A DNA stretch of 64,000 nt, taken from NCBI RefSeq assembly GCF_036785885.1, contig NC_092329.1, positions 7,998,001 through 8,062,000 on the forward strand, written 5' to 3'. Shown one piece after another: positions 3,001 to 48,452 of the stretch. Under the pieces are notes generated by a model that saw only the letters and a list, made by a program, of their open reading frames with translations, ran no database searches and was not told the origin of the DNA. Source of the stretch: Coffea arabica (lineage: Eukaryota > Streptophyta > Magnoliopsida > Gentianales > Rubiaceae). A program made the translations under genes and the position numbers. Each line of letters opens with the position of its first letter. Position 1 is the first letter of the stretch.

Positions 3001-3799
3001 ACAGTGGCCGTCATAGACTTCCTAACTGCTAGGTAAATCACTACCTCAATAATCCAAGATTCTTTTTTTTTTTTGTCCCCCTTAATTTTTGCTATGTTAT
3101 TAAATATGTTGTTTTTTGGTTTTTTCCCTTTTTCCACACAAAAATTTCTAGATATGCAAAGAGCCCAAGTCTATTAGCAGTTGAGCTACTGAATGAGCCT
3201 CTTTCACCGGGGGTTTCTCTGGACACCCTTTCCAAGTACTATAAGGCTGGTTATGATGCAGTCCGCAGGCACTCTTCCACTGCTTATGTAATATTGTCCA
3301 ACCGATTAGGCCCTGCTGATAGCACGGAGCTGATTCCTTTCGCCAGCGGGGTCACAAGATCTGTTATTGATGTTCATTACTACAATCTTTTTTCCGATGT
3401 ATACAGCAATTTGACTGTTCAACAGAACATTGATATTATACAAACCAATAGGACAGCTCAATTGGCCAGAATCACATCAGCAAATGGACCTCTTGTTTTT
3501 GTTGGTATGCCACTAATAATAATATATTGCTCCAGGAATTCACCAAATTTCAAATTCAGTATTACTATTAAATTGGTAGCTGAATTGGTATTTCTACTTT
3601 TGACTTGCTTTTTTCAGGTGAATGGGTAGCTGAATGGGAAGTTAGTGGCGCCGCTAAAGAAGATTACCAAAGGTTTGCAGCAGCACAATTACAAGTGTAT
3701 GGGCGAGCAACATTTGGATGGGCTTATTGGACTCTTAAAAATGTTGTTAACCACTGGAGTTTGGAGTGGATGATCAAAAATGGTTACATCAAGCTTTAA
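1..3799 (+). CDS. GH5 glucan 1,3-beta-glucosidase-like, copy 1 (5' end outside window)
   Basis: Secreted-type glycoside hydrolase family 5 enzyme of the plant group related to exo-beta-1,3-glucanases, in which a fascin-like beta-trefoil is inserted in the barrel. It is predicted to act on beta-glucans in the wall or apoplast. Exons read in one frame: <1-60, 176-373, 1795-1953, 2057-2226, 2877-3032, 3152-3504 and 3618-3799 (TAA), all with GT-AG introns. The first three exons give the fascin-like part ([34 protein letters not shown]). The later ones give the GH5 core: [18 protein letters not shown], the acid/base Glu in LLNEPL, VHYYNLF, and the nucleophile Glu in GEWVAEW, which sits at the last exon junction. 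The signal peptide and first exons lie before base 1. Exon lengths match copy 2 almost exactly, so this is a tandem duplicate. Substrate specificity is inferred from the family only. Confidence 0.9.
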
Positions 3800-9907: not shown

Positions 9908-12900
9908 ATGGCGAACAATCTTGAAATGAAGAAACTAGTTGCCATCTCTTGCTTGTCATGGCTATTCTTGGTTTCTTGTAGCGCTGTTGCAGGCCAAGAT
10001 GTGCCATTCAAAGCAGCAAATTTAGGTGGTTGGCTGGTAGCTGAGGGATGGATGACTCCAGACCTCTTTGATGGCATTCCCAATAAAGACCTCCTGGTAC
10101 ACTACACCAATTTAATTTCTCTCCATAAACTCTGCCTTTGGTGACTTGTCAAATTGTTACAAATCAAAATAACTTCCCTTTTATGGTATGAAACTGGTGG
10201 CAGTAATATCATTCTTGGACAATTTCAAGTTTCTATACAGTAATATCTTATGGAACATTAATTACACATTGGAATTGCATGATTCTTACGTTCATCTAGG
10301 ATGGAACACAAGTGCAACTGAAGTCGACAATGCTCAACAAGTATCTGACAGCAGAGAACGGTGGTGGATCAAATTTAGTTGCTAACCGCGATAGTGCCTC
10401 TGGCTGGGAAACTTTCTGGGTGGGTAGTTCTATGACGTCCCCTGATCGTCTATTATGAAGAATTTCTGGTGTTAACTCTGCGTATATACACTTCATTCGT
10501 GCTGAAATATGCCTTTTTTTTTATTCTGTTTCTTATACTTCTATGCACATGCAGTTATGGAGGATTAATGAGAATACCTTCAACCTCAGGGTGTTCAATA
10601 AGCAGTTTGTGGGACTGGACAATCAAGGTCAGGGAAAGAATATAAATGCAATATCTACTACACCTGGAAATGCTGAAACGTTTCAGATTGTAAGGAAACA
10701 AGATGATCCATCCAGAATACGCCTTAGAGCCTCGAACGGGCTCTTTGTTCAGGTATATTTTGCTCTTTATTCTGAAACGGTACTACTAGCTTTTTTCTCA
10801 GTCAGAAGTAACATATCATTTGCAGATTGTTCATAAAAAGGAAAAGGTACCTGCCATACGATTTTCAAATCATTTGAGAAGGGAAAATTGATTTATCTGA
10901 TTCTGGTTCGAAAAATGGATGTAACCCTACTTATTTTTACCATATAGGACCCTGAAATGGACTAGTTAGAGACATATATGATTGGAATGTATTAACTAGC
11001 AACATTATGCAAGCCAATGCAAGCCAAAGTGGTTTTACTGAGTTTTTCTGACTTCTATTTGGCTATTTGCCTTGTGAAAGGCTCCCAGTGGATCCTCAGT
11101 GGTGGCAGATTATGGAGACACTTCAGATTGGGGGGATCAAAATCCATGTGTTTTCCAATTGAATATTGTCAACACATTAAGGGGCGAATACCAACTTACA
11201 AACGGATATGGGCGGGATAAAGCTCCTCAAGTGTTGAAGGTAAAACTAGTAACACACCTAATCTAATTTAATGGGGATTTGGCCATATATATCAACTTAC
11301 GAAGAAATCATTTGCACTAAAAAAAAAAAAATTCAAACTGCAGGATCACTGGAATAATTACATTGTGGAAGACGATTTCAAGTTTATGTCCGATAATGGT
11401 CTGAATGCTGTTAGAATTCCAGTTGGGTGGTGGATCCAGTATGATCAGACACCACCAGCACCATTTGTTGGAGGTTCCTTACAAGCGTTAGACAATGCTT
11501 TCTCATGGGCACAGTAAGCAGCCTTAGAAGAAAATCACGCTTAAACATTGTTCATTTGACTTGAGTATATGGAGCGAACAATGAAATCTTAGTACACAAA
11601 AACTCAGAACTGAATGCTGAACAGTTAACATGTTGTATAGGTACTATTTGTTATTAATCCACTCATTACTGATTTTTCCGGGTAACTATTGTCACAGGAA
11701 GTACAATATGAAGGTGATAGTGGACCTCCATGCAGTTCCAGGATCACAAAATGGGAATGAGCATAGTGGAACTAGAGATGGATTTGCAGAATGGGGAGAT
11801 TCTTATGTACAGAGAACTGTGGAAGTCATAGACTTCCTTGCAAAAAGGTTATCCAAAGAATTCCCCTTTCACATCATATTAATTTCATCATTCTAAAATT
11901 TTCATGGAAAAATGTTCTCTGCATCTGCACAGACCACAGTATCCAAGATCTAGATGTCCTTTTTGTAGCCGAATTTTAATCCACTAAGGGAGGAATATGG
12001 ACTTGCATTTCTAGCTGATACATTAGTTTCCTCTACTTCCTGTTATAAAATCTGAATCTCAGACATGGTTCTTGATGCATCAAAAGCACTTAAACCAAGT
12101 TTCCATCCATGCTAATCTGGTACAGTAACGTAATAGTATCAGGTATCCAGAGATCCCTAGTTCCTCAAGGTGTGACCTTCGAGAAATGTTTTATGTCTAT
12201 GACCTGTTGCTTGATAGATGCTTGTATTTTCAGGTATGCTAATCGTCCAAGTCTTGGAGCGATAGAGTTAATGAACGAACCTAATGCAGCAATTGTCCAA
12301 TTTTCTGCTTTAAGCGACTACTACAAGAAAGGTTATGACGCTGTAAGGAAGTATACTTCCACAGCTTATGTCATATTGTCAGCTAGATTGGGAGATGCTT
12401 CCGACAAGGAGTTCCTTTCTCTTGCTGGTGGCCTTGATCGCTCCGTCATAGACGTTCATTACTATAACCTCTTTTCAGACCAGTTCAACAACATGGATGA
12501 ACAACAGAATATTGATTATATTCGCAATGATAGGGCTGCACAACTGCAGGAAGTGACTCAAAGCAATGGTCGTCCTTTAAGCTTTGTTGGTAAGTCATAT
12601 TACCGCAGCCAATACTCCACTTCAAAGATGTTGCCATGAGAAATGGATTGATGGTTTTGGTCTTCCAAATTTCTGCTCTGCTTTAGTAAGGTGTGGGATT
12701 GAAAAGATCGTTTGAACTCCCAAGTTTTGGATATTGCATCAAGATGTTACTTAATTTGACAACATAAATAGGGAGTATGTTGAAAAAGTATGACATAACA
12801 AAACTACTCGAGAATTACATGATTTTTTTTACAATCGCAAGGTTCAAATTTCTTACCTTTCTTGTGTGAATCACAAATTTCAGAGTTTCTAGTGAACTAG

Positions 12901-21075: not shown

Positions 21076-24000
21076 GTGGTATCAGAGCTAGCTACGAGCC
21101 ATTGGGTATATATACACATATATAAAAATGACTAAAAATCAGGACGAAATAAGGAAGGAGATCACTGAGCTAGGAAGTGTGGTTAGGACTTTTGCTAACA
21201 GGAGTGATGGTCTGGAGCAGGCTGTCAGGATCATGGAGCACAGGCAGGAGAGTACTGAAAAAACACTCAAAAACCTGGATCAGAAGTATGAAGGTATGAT
21301 GAACATGATGGCACAAATGTTAGCAAGGTTAAATGACAAGGGAAAAGAGGTAGAAGGCAACAGCTCAGACTCCAGTTTGATGCAGAAAGAGGACAACAGA
21401 AGGAAGGAGGAGCAGAAAGGAGCCAGGGATAGATCTGAATCTCAGGGTCCTAGGTCTTTCACTAGGTTACCTAAGGTGGACCTGCCATCATTCACTGGGG
21501 AAAATCCCAGGGAATGGATCAGGAAGGCCAATAAGTACTTCAAAATCAATGGAGTGGAGGAGGAAATGAAGCCTGAAGTTGCAGAACTCTACTTCAGAGA
21601 TAAGGCAGATATCTGGTTTCATGGTGTATTCGGTGGAAGGGAGGATATTCCTTGGAGTGAGCTCTGCAATGCACTATGTGAGAGGTTTGGAGACGGGACC
21701 CCTGAGGAAGCTATAGAGGAGTTCAACAAACTAATGCAGACAGGATCAGTAGCTGACTACTTGGAGAAATTTGAAATGCTCAAAGCCCAGGTAATGCCTT
21801 CCCTCCCTCATCAGCAGGATTGCTATTATAAAACATGTTTCCTAAGTGGATTAAAAGAAGAAATAGTGACTATGGTAAAACTAGCCAAACCAAAAACACT
21901 GGCAGAGGCTGTGGAAGCTGCCAAACTACAGGAGAGGAACCTGAGAGCATTGCAGAGAATTCACAAGACCCCTACCTACAACCCCAGCTACCAGAAACCT
22001 CAGCCTAAAGTCCCATACCAGCCAAAATTCCCTGACAAAACCCCAAGCTACCCCAAACTACCTGACAAACAGATTTCCAAAACATACAGTAACCACCCCA
22101 ATCCCCAGAGCCAATTCAAAAAACTCACCCCAGCAGAACTCAATTACAGGAGGGAAAGGGGGCTTTGCTTCAAATGTTCTGAACCATATACATTGGGGCA
22201 TGTATGTAGACAGTCTCATTTGAACTTGCTAATATTGGAGGAGGAGGAGACACCAGGAAAGGTTGAAGAGGAAGAAAAGAAGGATGAGACTGATATATTC
22301 TGTGACTGTATTGGAGGGGAGTTGGAGAATGAACTCATGGAAGTATCTATCCATGCCCTGGCTGGAGGAGGTAAACATAAGACCATCAGGATCAAAGGGT
22401 TAGTTCAGGGAAGGGCCATTACTGCACTAGTTGACAGTGGCAGTACTCATTGCTTTGTTGATGAACAGTTGGCTAAAAGCTTGAAATTGGCAACACAGGG
22501 AGAGACTCTGACAGTTAGAGTGGCAAATGGGGAGAAACTTCAATCCAGAAACATTACCAAGCCTGTAGTATGGAAGATGCAGGGATATGAATTCTCACAC
22601 CAGTTCAATACTCTAAGGCTGGGAGGGTGTGATATGATACTAGGAGTAGACTGGCTAGCCAGGAACAGCCCTATGGAGTTTGATTTCAGAAAATTAAGCA
22701 TGAAATTTAGGAAAGGGAAACAACAGGTGGAGCTAAAGGGAGAGGACAGTACCATACAACTAAAACTCATAAGAGGAAGTAGGCTGCACAAGTGGACCAG
22801 GAAGCATACATATGGAATTATGGCACAGGTGTGTGCAGTGGAGGACAGGGAATCAGTACAAGGGCCATACCCACCAGTTATGGAGAAGCTACTGCAGGAC
22901 TTTGCAGATGTTTTCCAGGAACCACAGGGACTTCCCCCTACTAGGAGCCAGGATCACTGCATTACTCTCAAGGAGGGAGCAAAGCCATTCCAGATCAGGC
23001 CATACAGGTGTCCCTATATTCAGAAGACAGAAATTGAGACACTGGTGCAGGAGATGCTACACTCTGGAATCATACAACTCAGCAGCAGCCCCTTTGCCTC
23101 ACCAGTGTTGCTAGTCAAGAAAAAAGATGGATCATGGAGGTTTTGTGTGGATTACAGACAGCTGAATGACCTGACAGTGAAAAACAAGTTCCCCATGCCA
23201 CTTATTGATGAACTGCTGGATGAGTTGCATGGCTCCAAGTATTTCACCAAAATCGACCTCAGAGCTGGATACTTCCAGATAAGAGTAAGGGAGGAGGACA
23301 TTCCAAAAACAGCTTTCAGAACACACTAGGGACTGTACGAATTCAAAGTCATGCCATTTGGCCTGACCAATGCACCAGCAACTTTCCAAGGATTGATGAA
23401 CCAGGTATTCCAGAAACAACTAAGAAAGCATGTATTAGTGTTTTTTGATGACATATTAATCTACAGCCCTACACTAGAGGAACATATCCAGCATGTCACT
23501 GAAGTCTTTGAAATTCTAAGGCAACACCAGCTCTATGCTAAGGAGAGCAAGTGCTCCTTTGCTCAAAAGCAGGTAGAATACCTAGGCCATATTATCTCAG
23601 CAGATGGAGTAAGAGCTGACCCTAACAAGATTAACAGCATGATGGAATGGCCAAGGCCAGGGAACACCAAGCAACTAAAGGGATTCTTGGGACTGACAGG
23701 CTACTACAGGAAATTTGTCAAGGGATATGGTGCTATTGCCAAACCACTGACCACCCTCCTCAAGAAAGATGGCTTCCACTGGGGAGAGGAGGCTGAGGAT
23801 GCCTTCCAGAAACTCAAGTTAGCTATGTGCAGCACCCCTGTACTAGCTCTCCCTGACTTCACTCAACCCTTTATAGTAGAAACTGATGCCTGCTATGGGG
23901 GAATAGGAGCTGTACTAATGCAGAATAGGAGGCCATTGGCTTTTCTTAGTCAAAGCTTGGGACAGAGGAACCTGGGATTGTCAATTTATGAAAAAGAACT

Positions 24001-25718
24001 TCTGGCCTTAGTCACAGCAGTCACTAAATGGAGGCACTACCTTGAAGGCCATCACTTTATTATCAACACTGACCACCAAAGTCTGAAATACCTACTGGAG
24101 CAGAGGATCACCACCCCCCTGCAACAGAAATGGCTGACTAAGCTGATGGGGCTAAGCTATGAAATTTGCTACAAAAAGGGGAAGGAGAATGTGGTAGCTG
24201 ATGCCCTCTCCAGAATAGGCAAAGGAGAAGCTGAGAATGCCATGACTACCATCATTATACCAGAATGGATGAAAGAAGTAATGGAGAGCTATCAGGGAGA
24301 TGACTGGGCTCAGGACCTCATCAGGGGACTCCTAGCATTTCCAGGACAGGCCTCAGATTATAGCTATCAGAGTGGAATTCTGAGGTATAAGGGAAGAGTG
24401 GTGGTTGGAAAAGGGGGGGAGATAAGGAAGACACTCATCACTACCCTCCATGACTCACAACTAGGAGGACATTCAGGCATCCAAGCCAGCTGGCTGAGAG
24501 CTAAACAGTTATTCTACTGGCCAGGTATGTTCAAAGAAATCAAGACAGTAGTATTGCAATGTGACACCTGCAGGAAATGTAAAGATGAACGTGCAGCTTA
24601 TCCAGGCCTACTCCAACCACTCCCTATTCCACAGCATTCCTGGAGTCATGTTACCATGGACTTTATAGAGGGGTTACCAAAGTCTGAGGGAAGGGATACT
24701 ATACTGGTAGTAGTAGACAGATTTACTAAGTATGCTCACTTCATGAGTTTGGCCCACCCCTTTGAAGCTACAAAGATAGCTAGGGTCTTCCTGGACCATA
24801 TCTGTAAGCTACACGGTATCCCTCAGAGCATGATTTCAGATAGAGACAAGATATTCACCAGCCAATTCTGGACAGAGCTGTTCACACTGCTGGGGGTAGG
24901 ATTGAACCTGAGTACAGCCTACCATCCTCAAACAGATGGCCAGACAGAGAGAGTCAACCAGGTATTAGAAATGTATCTCAGGTGTATGACACACCTGGAA
25001 CCTAAGAGGTGGAACACATGGCTTTCCTTAGCTGAGTGGTGGTACAACACTACCTACCACACTGCTATACAGATGACCCCCTTTGAAGCTTTGTACGGAT
25101 CTAAACCTCCACAGTTAGCTCTTGGCCCCTATGAACAAGCCAAAGTGGCCACTGTGGGTGACTATATAAGGGACAGGAGACAGATGGATGAGCTATTGCA
25201 GCATAATCTGAAGACTGCTCAGGAGAGGATGAAGAAATATGCTGATGTACACAGGAGTGAGAGGGAATTCCAAGTTGGTGAGTGGGTGTACCTAAGGTTA
25301 CAGCCTTATAGACAATCCACTGTGATGATCAGAAACAACACCAAGTTATCTGCCAAGTATTTTGGTCCCTTCCTCATAGAGAAGAAGATTGGAAAGGTTG
25401 CTTACAGGCTTAAGCTACCTTCTCAGTCCAGGATACACCCTGTCTTTCATGTATCCTTGCTGAAGAAGAAACTAGGGGATAAGACTGCCCCTATACTACA
25501 ACTGCCAGACACTGATGACAGAGGACTCATTCGAGTGGAACCAGAATCCTTACTAAGCAGAAGAACGATCAAGAGGGGAAACACTGCTATCACACAATGG
25601 TTAATTCAATGGTGGGGAACTGAACCAGCAGATGCAACCTGGGAGGATGCTGTGCAAATTAGGGAGAAATTTCCTCAATTCCAACCTTGAGGACAAGGTT
25701 GTTGCAAGGGGGAGGTAT

Positions 25719-34049: not shown

Positions 34050-34309
34050 TTTTTAAAAGGGCAAATTATCCATTTGGCCCTTGAACTTTTAGTTTAAGTA
34101 AAATTAAGCCCTCTAACTATTTATAGTCAACTTTTAGCCCTTAAACTTGTAAAATTGGAAACCCGTGGCCCTTTTACCTGGTTTATCCGGTTTTGCAACT
34201 GAAAAATTAAATCACACGAATGGCAATATGCTTTAAAGGAGGGCATTTTTGTCCGTATATTCTAAGCAAAAAGTGAACAGCTCTATCTTCTTCCCTTTCC
34301 CTAACCCAA

Positions 34310-34642
34310 CCTGCCATCGACGGAAGATCAGCCTCCAAGAACCCCAAGACTTACAAATACTACAGTAATGCCATCATTCAAAGATTCAGGGACAACCCCT
34401 CCTTCCCCCCCTCCCCCAACAAAAAAAATCACTTTTTCTGAAGTCCGCAAGACCATCGTTGGAGACGTCGGCTCCATTCGCGGGGGTTTTTGATTTCTTG
34501 CAGGTCTGGGGTTTGATTAATTACTCTCCCTTTTCTTCTTCTTCTTCTTCTAATAAAGCTGCCGCTGCCCCCCAACAACTCTCCCACAATGACAGCAAGG
34601 ACTCCTCCTCCTCCTCCGCCACCAAATCTGCTAAATTCAAGG
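34310..34642 (+). pseudogene. captured SWI3-type SWIRM domain fragment
   Basis: Reads GRSASKNPKTYKYYSNAIIQ then RFRDNP, and in the adjoining frames ITFSEVRKTIVGDVGSIR and VFDFLQVWGLINYSP. This is the SWIRM core of plant SWI3 subunits (SWI3B-like) of SWI/SNF remodellers, where the order SKNP..YKYYRN, RKI.F..VR, SIRRVFDFL..WGLINY is conserved. At least two frameshifts, one at an A-run and one at a G-run, separate the pieces, so no intact SWIRM protein can be made. A Ser-rich linker follows to the junction with the phosphatase fragment. No intron is visible, though the fragment is short. Confidence 0.8.
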
Positions 34643-35200
34643 AGGAAGCATACTCCTCAATTCCAGCTGTGAACACCACAATCTCAAATTTATTACTCAG
34701 GAACTCCAAAAATTCTTCCATAAATGGCCTCTTTAACACGAAGAAATTCACTCTTTCTCCATCTATCACCAGCCTAACTATGAAATCATACTTTTCTAGA
34801 GCAGGGCCCGGCTGGGAATGCACTAGAGTCTTGTCCAAATCAAGAAAGACAGTGTTTTTCTCTGGCGAAACCAGTGGTGGAAGTGCAGAACTTTTTTCGT
34901 CATCAAACAGAGCTCTTCTGATGCTACTTTTGGGATCTTCAGAACCCTTTTGAAGTAACTGATACCCCTATTTTCTTGGGCTCTTCTTCTTAATTGGAGT
35001 TGAAATGCGCGCTAATTTGGAAAAAATCTTGATGAGGCGGTGGTGGCAAGTGTAAATGGACTTGTTAATCGACGCAAGCACCACTAAAGCAGCGGCGGAG
35101 GCATTCTTTACGGGGGATTTTTTCGGTGTTGGTGGCTGTGGTGATGGTGGCGCGAATTTTTTATGGACTTTGTTGGGGTTTTCTTCACAATCTTGGACAT
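34643..35200 (-). pseudogene. captured FCP1/SCP-like CTD phosphatase fragment
   Basis: From an ATG at 35200 the minus strand reads MSKIVKKTPTKSIKNSRHHH, a region with NASAAALVVLASINKSI, then SPEKNTVFLDLDKTLVHSQP, FFVLKRPFMEEFLEFLSNKF and EIVVFTAGIEEYASSL, where it stops matching. DLDKTLV is the DxDx(T/V) catalytic motif of the NIF/FCP1 phosphatase domain, and FTAG is its second motif. The C-terminal third (the acidic metal-binding DD motif) is absent. A frameshift in the N-terminal part and an in-frame stop before the catalytic domain mark it as decayed. However, an internal open frame of 105 codons still covers DKTLV to FTAG. Confidence 0.85.
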
Positions 35201-35641
35201 AATTTTTGTTGGATTTCGTGGAGAAGATCGAGAAATCAAGACGAAAGGGGAAAGGAAGAGTGGTTAATTGATGCGATTTTTAGTGGGGGAAAGGAGTATA
35301 TGAGGAAACCAGGAGAGAATAGAGTGGGCAGTTTTAAAAATTTTGCTTAGAGTCGGACTCAGTTCTCCCCAATTTGCAGAAGCTTAAGAACTCTAGAAAT
35401 CTGTGCCTATTTGGTTGGGTTAGGGAAAGGAAAGAAGATGGAGTTGTTCATTTTTGTTTAAAAGATGCGGACAAAAATGCCCTTCTTTCCGGTTGCAAAA
35501 CCGGATAAACCAGGTAAAAGGGCCACGGGTTTCCAATTTTACAAGTTTAAGGGCTAAAAGTTGACTATAAATAGTTAGAGGGCTTAATTTTACTTAAACT
35601 AAAAGTTCAAGGGCCAAATGGATAATTTGCCCTTTTTAAAA

Positions 35642-45471: not shown

Positions 45472-47105
45472 ACGTCCTAGCATAAAAAAGGAGATGAAGA
45501 CCGGATGTCAAAACATATTTGAAATGACAGTTCTAATTTTTTATTCTTTATTTTTACAAATACAAATGAAAACAGCACGAAGAAAATGCTAAATGATGGC
45601 TTAGCAAAATGGACAAATTAAAAGGGGAATAATAACCAATTTCCCTCACTGAATTTTGTGAACTTAGCAAAATTTTTTCATACATTATTATTAATGTAAA
45701 AAAAATTTAGTGTAAAAAAATTTATACTAATAATGTATAAAAAGTTAATCCTCAAAATTAATGTTAATTAAAATGGGAATAATAAGAGAAAGGAAGAGAT
45801 GTACCAGAAAAAAAAAAAAAAAAGAAGAGATGAATGGTAAATCAAAGGAATGGACCCCATCCGTTTCATCCCATAAGTTGACCATCTGACCAAAATGACG
45901 TTGCGTCTTTTTGGGGCTCCGATTATCCGTGAGTTTCAAGGTTTCCTCCCCTCTTGAAAAAAAGCAGCTACTTTTATCCTAAACTCTCAAAAAATCACCC
46001 CTACACTACTTATTTTATCCCAAAATGTGAAAAATAGGAATTCTTAAAATAAAAAAAAAACCGGATATCTCGGTGACTTTGGAGTGCGCGCTCTAGTGCA
46101 CGTGTGGTGCTCAAGCCCCAAGAGTCAAAGTTACCTCCTATAACCCGTATCCTTCCGGTAATCCATCTTTACATTTAATAACCTTTCACACAGTAGAGTA
46201 AAATAATAGAGTACTACACAGAGTACTTAGAAATAATAAAAAAAAAAAATTGCTTCAACAAAAAAGAGAAAATTTTATAGGTTTTTTTTTTCTTTAGCAC
46301 CTGCCCCATGACCCATAAGCAGAGAGCAGTAGACGAGGAGGGTCATGTACAGAGAAGATTGCTTTTTCTCTGTCTGGTTATCTCTCTCTCTCTCTCTCTC
46401 TCTAATTTTCTCTCTCTAGAAATTGGTAAGATTTCTGAGTTCTACTCCTGGTTCATCATTTACATTGTCTATCTTGATTTAAATCTTGAGGGAATAAGTA
46501 AAAGCTGGGATTTTTCTTCATTTTTAGTGTACTGAGATTTAGTGGGAACTGTTTGATTTTTTTTGCTTTGTTTTTGGGGTACTGATTACCTTTTTTTCTG
46601 ATCTGGGTTGTTGAATGATTTCAATCTTTTTGAGCTTGAAGAGGGTAAGTGTAGCTAAAAGGGGAGTAACTAGAGCATTGGTATTAGGGAAGGGGGATTA
46701 TTGCACATTTTATTTGTCATCATTTTCATCATCAAAAATCATACAAGTAGTGTTTGTTAATATTTGATGATGATAATGATGGTGAAAATGAAGTATAGGG
46801 CTTTTTTGACCAGAGTAAAAGAGTTCAGATAAAGCACAAGGAAAAGAAAAGATGTCCCCTTTGATACCAATTCTTGATTGTTTTGGTCAATAAGGAAGGG
46901 AGAGAGGAAAAAAGAAAAGGAGTGTAAAACTCTTTGCTACTTTCTTTATCTTCTCTCTTTTTTCATCCACACGCTTCATCTCTCATTCTTGGTCTTCAGA
47001 TGTGATGTTCCTTGAACAACAACACAGCCTCTTGGTAAAAAGGGTTTCTGTATTTAAGTGATTTTAATAGGTGTGTTTTTTCGGGTGCAAAAGGGGGTTG
47101 TGAAG
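45472..47105 (+). other. upstream region and 5' leader of the U-box gene
   Basis: No coding gene. A (CT)n leader-like run at about 46381-46403 is followed by a donor (TTG|GTAAG, 46426). An acceptor (TTCAG at 46999) suggests a 5' UTR intron of about 570 bases. Between it and the main ATG there is a short upstream frame (ATG 47004, about 18 codons, starting MFLEQQHSLL). No TATA box can be chosen with confidence. Confidence 0.45.
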
Positions 47106-48452
47106 ATGCCTATGTACCAGCCATCTAGTAGGGGGAGGGAGGGGTTTGAGGTGAGTGGGGGTGGGCAGGTATTGGATCTGGAAACTGCAGTCAAAGATGG
47201 GATCTTGGGTGGTGGTGGTGGGGTGGTTCATAGTTGTGCTACTGGGGAAAAATTTGATCTGAAGAAGATGATTGAGGAGCTGGATTCAATTGAAATTCCA
47301 TCAGTTTTCATTTGTCCCATCTCTCTAGAGCCAATGCAAGATCCTGTGACCCTTTGCACAGGGCAAACTTATGAGAGATCCAACATCCTCAAGTGGTTCT
47401 CTTTGGGGCACTTCACTTGCCCCACCACAATGCAGGAGCTTTGGGATGACTCAATAACCCCAAATAGTACCCTTTACCAGCTCATTTACAGCTGGTTTAC
47501 TCAGAAGTACCTTGCTATGAAGAAGAGGTCTGAGGATGTGCAAGGAAGGGCTTTGGAGCTCTTGGAGACTCTGAAGAAAGTTAAAGGTCAAGCTAGAGTT
47601 CAAGCTTTGAAAGAGTTGAGGCAAGTTGTTTCTGCTCATGATTCAGCCAAGAAAACAGTTGTGGATAATGGTGGGGTTGCTCTGCTTTCTTCACTATTAG
47701 GCCCTTTTACCACACATGCTGTTGGGTCAGAGGCGATTGGGATTTTGGTGAATTTGGATTTTAGTTCAGATGCGAAGACGAACTTGAGACAACCAGCTAA
47801 GGTTTCGTTAATGGTAGACATATTGAATGAGGGTTCGATTGATACGAAAATCAATTGCACTAAATTGATTGAAACACTGATCGACGGGGAGGATTTTGAG
47901 TCCGAAATCGTGTCAAGCTTGAGTCTTTTGGTGGGAGTACTTAGATTAGTTAAGGATAAGAGACATCCGAATGGGGTGTTGGCTGGCCTTAGATTGCTGA
48001 AAATGATTTGCTCACATGAATCCGTGAGGAACTCGGTGGTAAGCATTGGGGCTGTTCCTCAATTGGTGGAGTTGTTACCCACTTTGAATCCCGAGTGCTT
48101 AGAATTGGCACTCTATGTTCTCGAAGCGTTATGTACCCTTCCAGAGGGTGGTCTGGCTCTAAAGAATTGTCCTAGTGCTATCCCCGCCATTGTGAAGCTA
48201 TTGATGAAGGTGTCAGAGAGCTGTACTCACTTTGCCTTGTCGATTTTGTGGGCAGTTTGCAAGCTTGCTCCAGAGGAATGTGCTGCACTTGCTGTTGATG
48301 CAGGTCTAGCGGCAAAGTTGCTTCTTGTCATTCAGAGCGGTTGCAATCCAGTTCTGAAGCAACGCTCGGCAGAGCTCTTGAAGCTATGTAGTCTAAATTA
48401 TACAGCTACCCTTTTCATTTCAAAATGTAAACTTACAAGAACAATACAATGA
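47106..48452 (+). CDS. U-box/ARM E3 ubiquitin ligase, PUB30/31-like, 448 aa
   Basis: Intronless coding region. The start MPMYQPSSRG is chosen because it matches the N-terminus typical of this subgroup; upstream in-frame sequence lacks another good ATG. The U-box is at residues 65-138 (VFICPISLEPMQDPVTLCTG, then TYERSNILKWF, TCPTTMQEL, STLYQLIYSWF) and would recruit an E2 enzyme. From about 150 to 440 are Armadillo-type helical repeats (for example VVDNGGVALLSSLLG, VVSIGAVPQLVELLPTLNPE) that bind substrates. A Gly-rich linker (GGGGGVV) precedes the U-box. Length and architecture fit PUB30/31, which in Arabidopsis act in stress responses. Targets here are unknown. The gene may be controlled by a leader intron and a short upstream frame. 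Confidence 0.93.
   Translation: MPMYQPSSRGREGFEVSGGGQVLDLETAVKDGILGGGGGVVHSCATGEKFDLKKMIEELDSIEIPSVFICPISLEPMQDPVTLCTGQTYERSNILKWFSLGHFTCPTTMQELWDDSITPNSTLYQLIYSWFTQKYLAMKKRSEDVQGRALELLETLKKVKGQARVQALKELRQVVSAHDSAKKTVVDNGGVALLSSLLGPFTTHAVGSEAIGILVNLDFSSDAKTNLRQPAKVSLMVDILNEGSIDTKINCTKLIETLIDGEDFESEIVSSLSLLVGVLRLVKDKRHPNGVLAGLRLLKMICSHESVRNSVVSIGAVPQLVELLPTLNPECLELALYVLEALCTLPEGGLALKNCPSAIPAIVKLLMKVSESCTHFALSILWAVCKLAPEECAALAVDAGLAAKLLLVIQSGCNPVLKQRSAELLKLCSLNYTATLFISKCKLTRTIQ

Follow-up and report, generated by a model that had tools for sequence, protein, structure and literature searches.

A gene-capturing Mutator-like element (Pack-MULE) of 1,574 bp, with an exact 9-bp target duplication, was identified at positions 34059-35632 of the window, the 64,000-nucleotide stretch of Coffea arabica DNA that was analysed. 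It carries pieces of a SWI3-type gene and of an SCP/NIF-type phosphatase gene in opposite orientation, and the same chimera was found at no fewer than 11 places in the genome, nearly all with a 9-bp duplication of their own, so that it represents more than a chance juxtaposition. We are confident of the overall explanation, which is that of a non-autonomous MULE family in which host-gene capture was followed by amplification in trans, a recent burst, and decay of the passengers.

According to this explanation, the window element would be a non-autonomous member of a Mutator-like family, other members of which bear a transposase. Gap repair with template switching is the most likely route by which an ancestral copy gained both its SWI3 exon piece and its 5' piece of the phosphatase gene. 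The family transposase would then have carried the chimera to its present sites, in part during a recent burst that includes the window copy.

Structure and Classification of the Element

The 9-bp duplication and the identical outer inverted ends (141 of 141 bp) of the preliminary description were both recovered exactly (Table 1). Family-wide, the ends reached over element positions 1-253 and 1355-1574, and their inner parts (177-253 versus 1355-1430) were about 85-91% alike.

Table 1. Features of the Pack-MULE and its insertion site, in window positions.
Feature	Positions	Strand	Remarks
Left target-site duplication, TTTTTAAAA	34050-34058	.	exact 9 bp; single copy at the empty site on the homeologous chromosome
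Whole Pack-MULE	34059-35632	.	1,574 bp; one among at least 11 copies
Left terminal inverted repeat	34059-34311	+	253 bp across the family; its outer 141 bp equal those of the right end
SWI3-type exon piece (SWIRM domain)	34317-34632	+	parents C20:1744247, C19:262924
Filler between captured pieces	34633-34643	.	11 bp
SCP/NIF-type phosphatase 5' flank/UTR and first part of CDS	34644-35346	-	parents C3:14466219, C4:14544295; frame broken
Stretch from phosphatase piece to right terminal repeat	35347-35412	.	66 bp
Right terminal inverted repeat	35413-35632	-	220 bp
Right target-site duplication, TTTTTAAAA	35633-35641	.	exact 9 bp

MULEs are recognised by target-site duplications of 9-11 bp, long terminal inverted repeats (100-500 bp), and a related element with a MuDR/MULE transposase. 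The duplication was 9 bp and exact in eight of the 11 copies (C14 and C19a have one mismatch each, and C15b lacks the right end), the repeats were 253 and 220 bp, and transposase domains were found in related elements on contigs C15 and C2. As expected of a Pack-MULE, the element contains host-gene pieces with parents elsewhere in the genome, and it has no transposase of its own, judging from the accounting of pieces and ends, which leaves 82 bp outside the ends and the two gene pieces, and from the frame lengths of the window copy, where the longest ATG frame is 68 aa. Distinct duplications and homeologous empty sites indicate that it transposed as a unit after capture. Helitrons make no target-site duplication, CACTA elements one of 3 bp and hAT elements one of 8 bp, and a gene-capturing element of these types was ruled out by the 9-bp duplication together with the long inverted ends. 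A source sequence for the 11-bp filler was looked for and not found, and the 66 bp before the right terminal repeat had no match in the parent loci.

Elsewhere in the window were a Ty3-type LTR retrotransposon (21092-25690), whose two long adjoining frames matched gag, protease, RT, RNase H, integrase, and chromo-like sequences, a plant U-box/ARM-repeat gene with a 464-aa frame (47058-48452), and two frames of the cellulase family (GH5), separated by about 9 kb (3033-3629 and 12094-12639), which are perhaps a tandem pair.

Related Elements and the Transposase Partner

The ends were shared by 23 other loci (L023-L045), 13 of which had two inverted ends, spaced 581-6,403 bp apart. A perfect 9-bp duplication was present in nine of these 13, in six of the nine without sliding the ends. 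An element of 6.1 kb on C15 had the duplication AAATATTTA on both sides (read by eye), ends 78-80% like those of the window element, and frames of at least 653 and at least 362 aa; its MuDR (PF03108) and SWIM domains scored above the cut-off, and the MULE domain (PF10551) just under it (27.5 versus 27.6). A second element, at C2:1815510-1821912, combined a perfect duplication with PF03108. At least seven family elements had a transposase match within 2.2-3.7 kb of their ends, the transposase places being taken from six contigs. The transposase loci L059-L067 also contained short internal stretches similar to positions ~19-90 of the terminal repeat (for example L060:2031-2101), which in L060 and L062 lay between the two coding frames.

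Captured Segments and Their Parent Genes

Element positions 259-574 matched a SWI3-type gene on C20 and C19 (91-92% BLAST identity), and positions 586-1288, reversed, an SCP/NIF phosphatase gene on C3 and C4 (92-94%). The preliminary description had proposed a Pack-MULE with a plus-strand SWIRM piece opposed to a minus-strand phosphatase piece, and had called for a search for the parents; this arrangement was confirmed, the pieces meeting at the 11-bp filler, and both parents were found elsewhere in the genome as homeolog pairs, named by Pfam as SWIRM (E 3.7e-25) and NIF phosphatase (E 5.5e-55). The SWI3 parent exons encode SWIRM plus Myb-like domains, and the phosphatase parent exons a NIF domain; their solved structural relatives are RSC8/SMARCC/SWI3 and CTD small phosphatases, respectively. 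The SWI3 piece lies within one open frame, and the phosphatase piece begins upstream of the coding sequence. Since the captured pieces differ from their parents by 5.7-9.5%, capture is older than the window insertion.

At sites that distinguish the two phosphatase homeologs, the window copy agreed with C3 at 13, with C4 at 10, and with neither at one; for the SWI3 piece the counts, from a small sample, were four for C20, zero for C19, and two for neither. Capture from one homeolog after the split was less fitting, given the mixed matches of the phosphatase piece and of the plastocyanin piece described below, and capture at or before homeolog separation therefore fits better. The SWI3 piece has too few sites to decide and leans, if anything, towards capture from the C20 side.

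The copy on C11 carries a third gene. In place of element positions 415-630 it has 634 bp (L016:1958-2591; C11:6555757-6556390) with 98% identity to C20:2316591 and C19:857012, and a genome search found no further matching place beyond these three. The piece comprises a complete plastocyanin/azurin-family precursor with flanking untranslated bases (Pfam Copper-bind, E 4.5e-29); its 167-aa frame is open, with two nearby single-base indels that scramble a short stretch. Against the two source genes it showed 10 and 11 differences over 639 sites, and where these homeologs differ it agreed with C19 at five and with C20 at six. Its fewer differences from the source genes fit a capture later than the other two. 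At the right junction, 7 bp (TTTATTA) are common to the plastocyanin and phosphatase sequences, while CGCAAGACC, a sequence of the SWI3 piece just upstream, recurs at the left junction, both as template switching would produce. Breakpoint microhomology has been reported for Pack-TIRs in animals (PMC8277862).

Copies, Insertion Sites, and Age

Copies were searched for in the 1.198-Gb assembly of 131 contigs, and 40 of 412 candidates were scored, which makes 11 copies a minimum. In a nine-copy tree, from which the rearranged C11 and C14 were omitted, the window copy, C6, C15a, C2, and C15b formed a young clade (support 100/99) with members 0.3-1.1% apart, within which the window copy paired with C6 (96/93) and C2 with C15b (99/98; 0.4% apart). 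The terminal branch of the window copy was zero: it has no private substitution within the young set, except for a 3-bp difference in a CTC repeat, and 0 changes in 1,574 sites correspond to a 95% upper limit of about three changes (0.19%). Homeologs of the parent loci differed at 370 of 15,319 aligned sites (stretches below 85% identity dropped), or about 1.2% per lineage. If the element changes no slower than the parent loci, the window insertion would be less than about one sixth the age of the homeolog split. The C14 copy differed from the window copy by 3.7% over element positions 1-757. Copy C19b (L007, C19:3735545-3737119) retains an open frame of 226 aa, in which the phosphatase piece is followed by the SWI3 piece in antisense, with an acidic tail as the result.

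Insertion sites were compared by matching 480 bp of joined flanks to the homeologous chromosome across the insertion point. An empty site was found across the whole joined flank for the window copy (473 of 478 aligned bases), C15a (470/478), C3 (467/474), C6 (461/472), and C19b (433/446), and a partial match crossing the junction for C11 (287/305). No copy was seen at both homeologous positions among the six copies with known position. As six of the 11 insertions are absent at the homeologous position, they are most likely later than the divergence of the two chromosome sets, loss or old polymorphism also being possible. The flank pieces of the C2 copy lie 13 bp apart on C1, without the element and with most of the left flank missing, so that a deletion is possible there. 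Only the right flank of C14 was matched, the flanks of C15b are repetitive, and no homeologous flank match was found for C21. The junction-crossing match of C19a lies on the same chromosome, 38 kb away (C19:9068476-9068857, 93%), and this element-free version of the flank suggests a local duplication. Earlier, the element had been described as young, which holds for the window insertion, with its empty homeologous site and lack of private substitutions, but not for the chimera, with its many copies and its distance from the parents.

The terminal repeats were also considered as a clock. The left end of the window copy differed from the left and right ends of older copies by 9 and 2 changes in C14, 12 and 5 in C19a, 6 and 6 in C21, 7 and 6 in C3, 10 and 12 in C19b, and 9 and 9 in C11. 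Judged against C14 and C19a, this suggests that the left end of the young clade was overwritten by a right end; the other four comparisons are neutral or lean slightly the other way. Homogenisation, and not age, is probably what the identical ends reflect, and given the C14 and C19a comparison, terminal-repeat identity was set aside as an age clock. A MULE with identical terminal repeats is, by way of caution, not necessarily datable by them.

Fate of the Captured Sequences

Changed codons of the phosphatase frame in the window copy were 5 synonymous and 15 non-synonymous (15 of 20), with a non-synonymous fraction of 0.70 expected from a simulation without selection; purifying selection on this piece was not seen in the window copy, and the changes look neutral. 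Between the homeologs of the phosphatase parents themselves, 12 codon differences are synonymous and 21 non-synonymous, which means that the parents are not strongly constrained either, and that the neutral ratio is weak as an argument.

Distinct C-to-T changes, counted over nine copies (without C11 and C14), were 16/65 in CG, 24/79 in CHG, and 41/321 in CHH contexts, with A-to-G at 15/520, and CHG exceeded CHH by an odds ratio of 2.98 (p 0.0005). Between homeologs of the parent loci, an unpolarised control from two loci, the values were 53/662, 25/931, and 136/4295, a CHG/CHH ratio of 0.84. Element and control differed in CHG (z 3.4, p 0.0006) and were alike in their CG excess (z -0.5), so the CHG excess is special to the element and the CG excess is not. 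CHG methylation is a mark of silenced plant transposons, and the CHG-biased changes suggest transposon-type silencing of the element. On this reading the captured pieces are passengers, whose coding frame is broken, whose changes look neutral, and whose mutations fit the pattern of CHG-methylated transposon DNA.

Captured gene pieces can serve as reservoirs of siRNAs directed against their donors, an idea already in print (as stated in the review PMC13317346), and trans-silencing of the parents by siRNAs of the element is a reasonable possibility. That the element is a functional regulator, with transcripts from its ends giving rise to siRNAs that reduce the expression of both parents, nevertheless seems unlikely. 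Because the pieces are opposed, one transcript begun at either end would match one parent in sense and the other in antisense, which is simpler than the convergent transcription suggested at first. Exact 21-mers, out of 1,554, are shared with the SWI3 parents (84 with C20, 74 with C19) and the phosphatase parents (171 with C3, 144 with C4), and the CHG-type decay suggests that the family has been a silencing target. However, a silencing footprint within the element does not demonstrate action in trans, and the captured coding sequence shows no sign of constraint. For captured pieces that are passengers, any small RNA would most likely silence the element itself, with silencing of the parents a possible, secondary effect.

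A new protein, either a truncated phosphatase or a fusion, is very improbable. The 226-aa frame of C19b does count against a passenger-only reading, as an older copy could give a product, and the plastocyanin frame of C11 likewise favours a protein. Yet the window copy has no ATG frame longer than 68 aa, the phosphatase frame is shifted by the same 1-nt deletion in all 10 copies, of 11, that cover the site, codon 79 is moreover a stop in each of the five young copies, and the change ratio looks neutral. Least credible of all is an assembly artefact or ordinary segmental duplication, which would account for the near identity of some copies (0.3-0.4%) but is mostly excluded already by the different flanks and distinct 9-bp duplications of the copies, and by homeologous empty sites that align at the insertion point.

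Subgenomes and Timing

Coffea arabica is the allotetraploid of its genus, with 22 chromosomes. Its origin is dated to 350-610 thousand years ago in PMC11018527. Subgenomes were typed for C17/C18 and C1/C2 only, by way of caffeine-pathway exons, and the other odd-numbered contigs were presumed, from contig order, to be of the same subgenome. A C17 exon equals the xanthosine methyltransferase structure 2EG5 at 141/141 residues and a C1 exon equals 2EFJ (dimethylxanthine methyltransferase) at 140/140, both structures presumably coming from Coffea canephora; the counterparts on C18 and C2 differ. By its caffeine gene C1, the pair of C2, types as canephora-like. The five copies within 1.1% of one another lie on C2, C6, C20, and C15 (two copies) and include the supported sister pair of C2 and C15b, with C15 placed by contig order in the other subgenome than C2, C6, and C20. 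Tentatively, and with some doubt on our part, the chimera may predate the separation of the progenitor lineages, have burst again after these joined, and have crossed between subgenomes, its genes being gathered stepwise. The C14 copy, on an even-numbered contig, argues against a simple one-way subgenome spread. If this history is true, the insertions are direct markers of transposition after allopolyploidy.

This one family displays much of the course of MULE gene capture: two genes, amplification, a third gene, likely end homogenisation, and methylation-type decay. Empty homeologous sites allow insertions to be placed in time, and in an allotetraploid crop the family offers ready presence/absence markers for Pack-MULE movement after hybridisation.

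Comparison with Known Pack-MULEs

A literature search on Coffea MULEs, judged by titles, found no paper titled for coffee Pack-MULEs, and no description of this chimera family was found in the literature searched, mostly at title level. Multi-copy, chimeric, and siRNA-linked Pack-MULEs have already been described in the sources cited here, and the coffee family is of a known kind, not a new regulatory device. In rice, 481 of 1,337 Pack-MULEs are multi-copy, as quoted in PMC8277862, and from that account they share with the coffee family the MULE ends, repeated transposition evident from distinct duplications, and pieces from other chromosomes, whereas the coffee host has homeologous chromosome pairs, and its element has two opposed pieces, with a third in one copy. 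The tomato PM-ZIBP family (13 + 1 copies), as outlined in PMC3310237, is likewise a captured-gene element of a dicot, similar in copy number and about 0.9-1.4 kb long, but has tandem terminal repeats in 13 copies and one captured gene, whereas in coffee the long repeats are single and the captured genes number two or three. Chimeric MULE-derived genes of Oryza with two or more parents (5-10%, as reported in PMC4858842) resemble the coffee family in drawing on more than one parent gene per element; what sets the coffee family apart from them, as portrayed there, is the opposed orientation of its pieces and the lack, in the window copy, of a long open frame shared between these.
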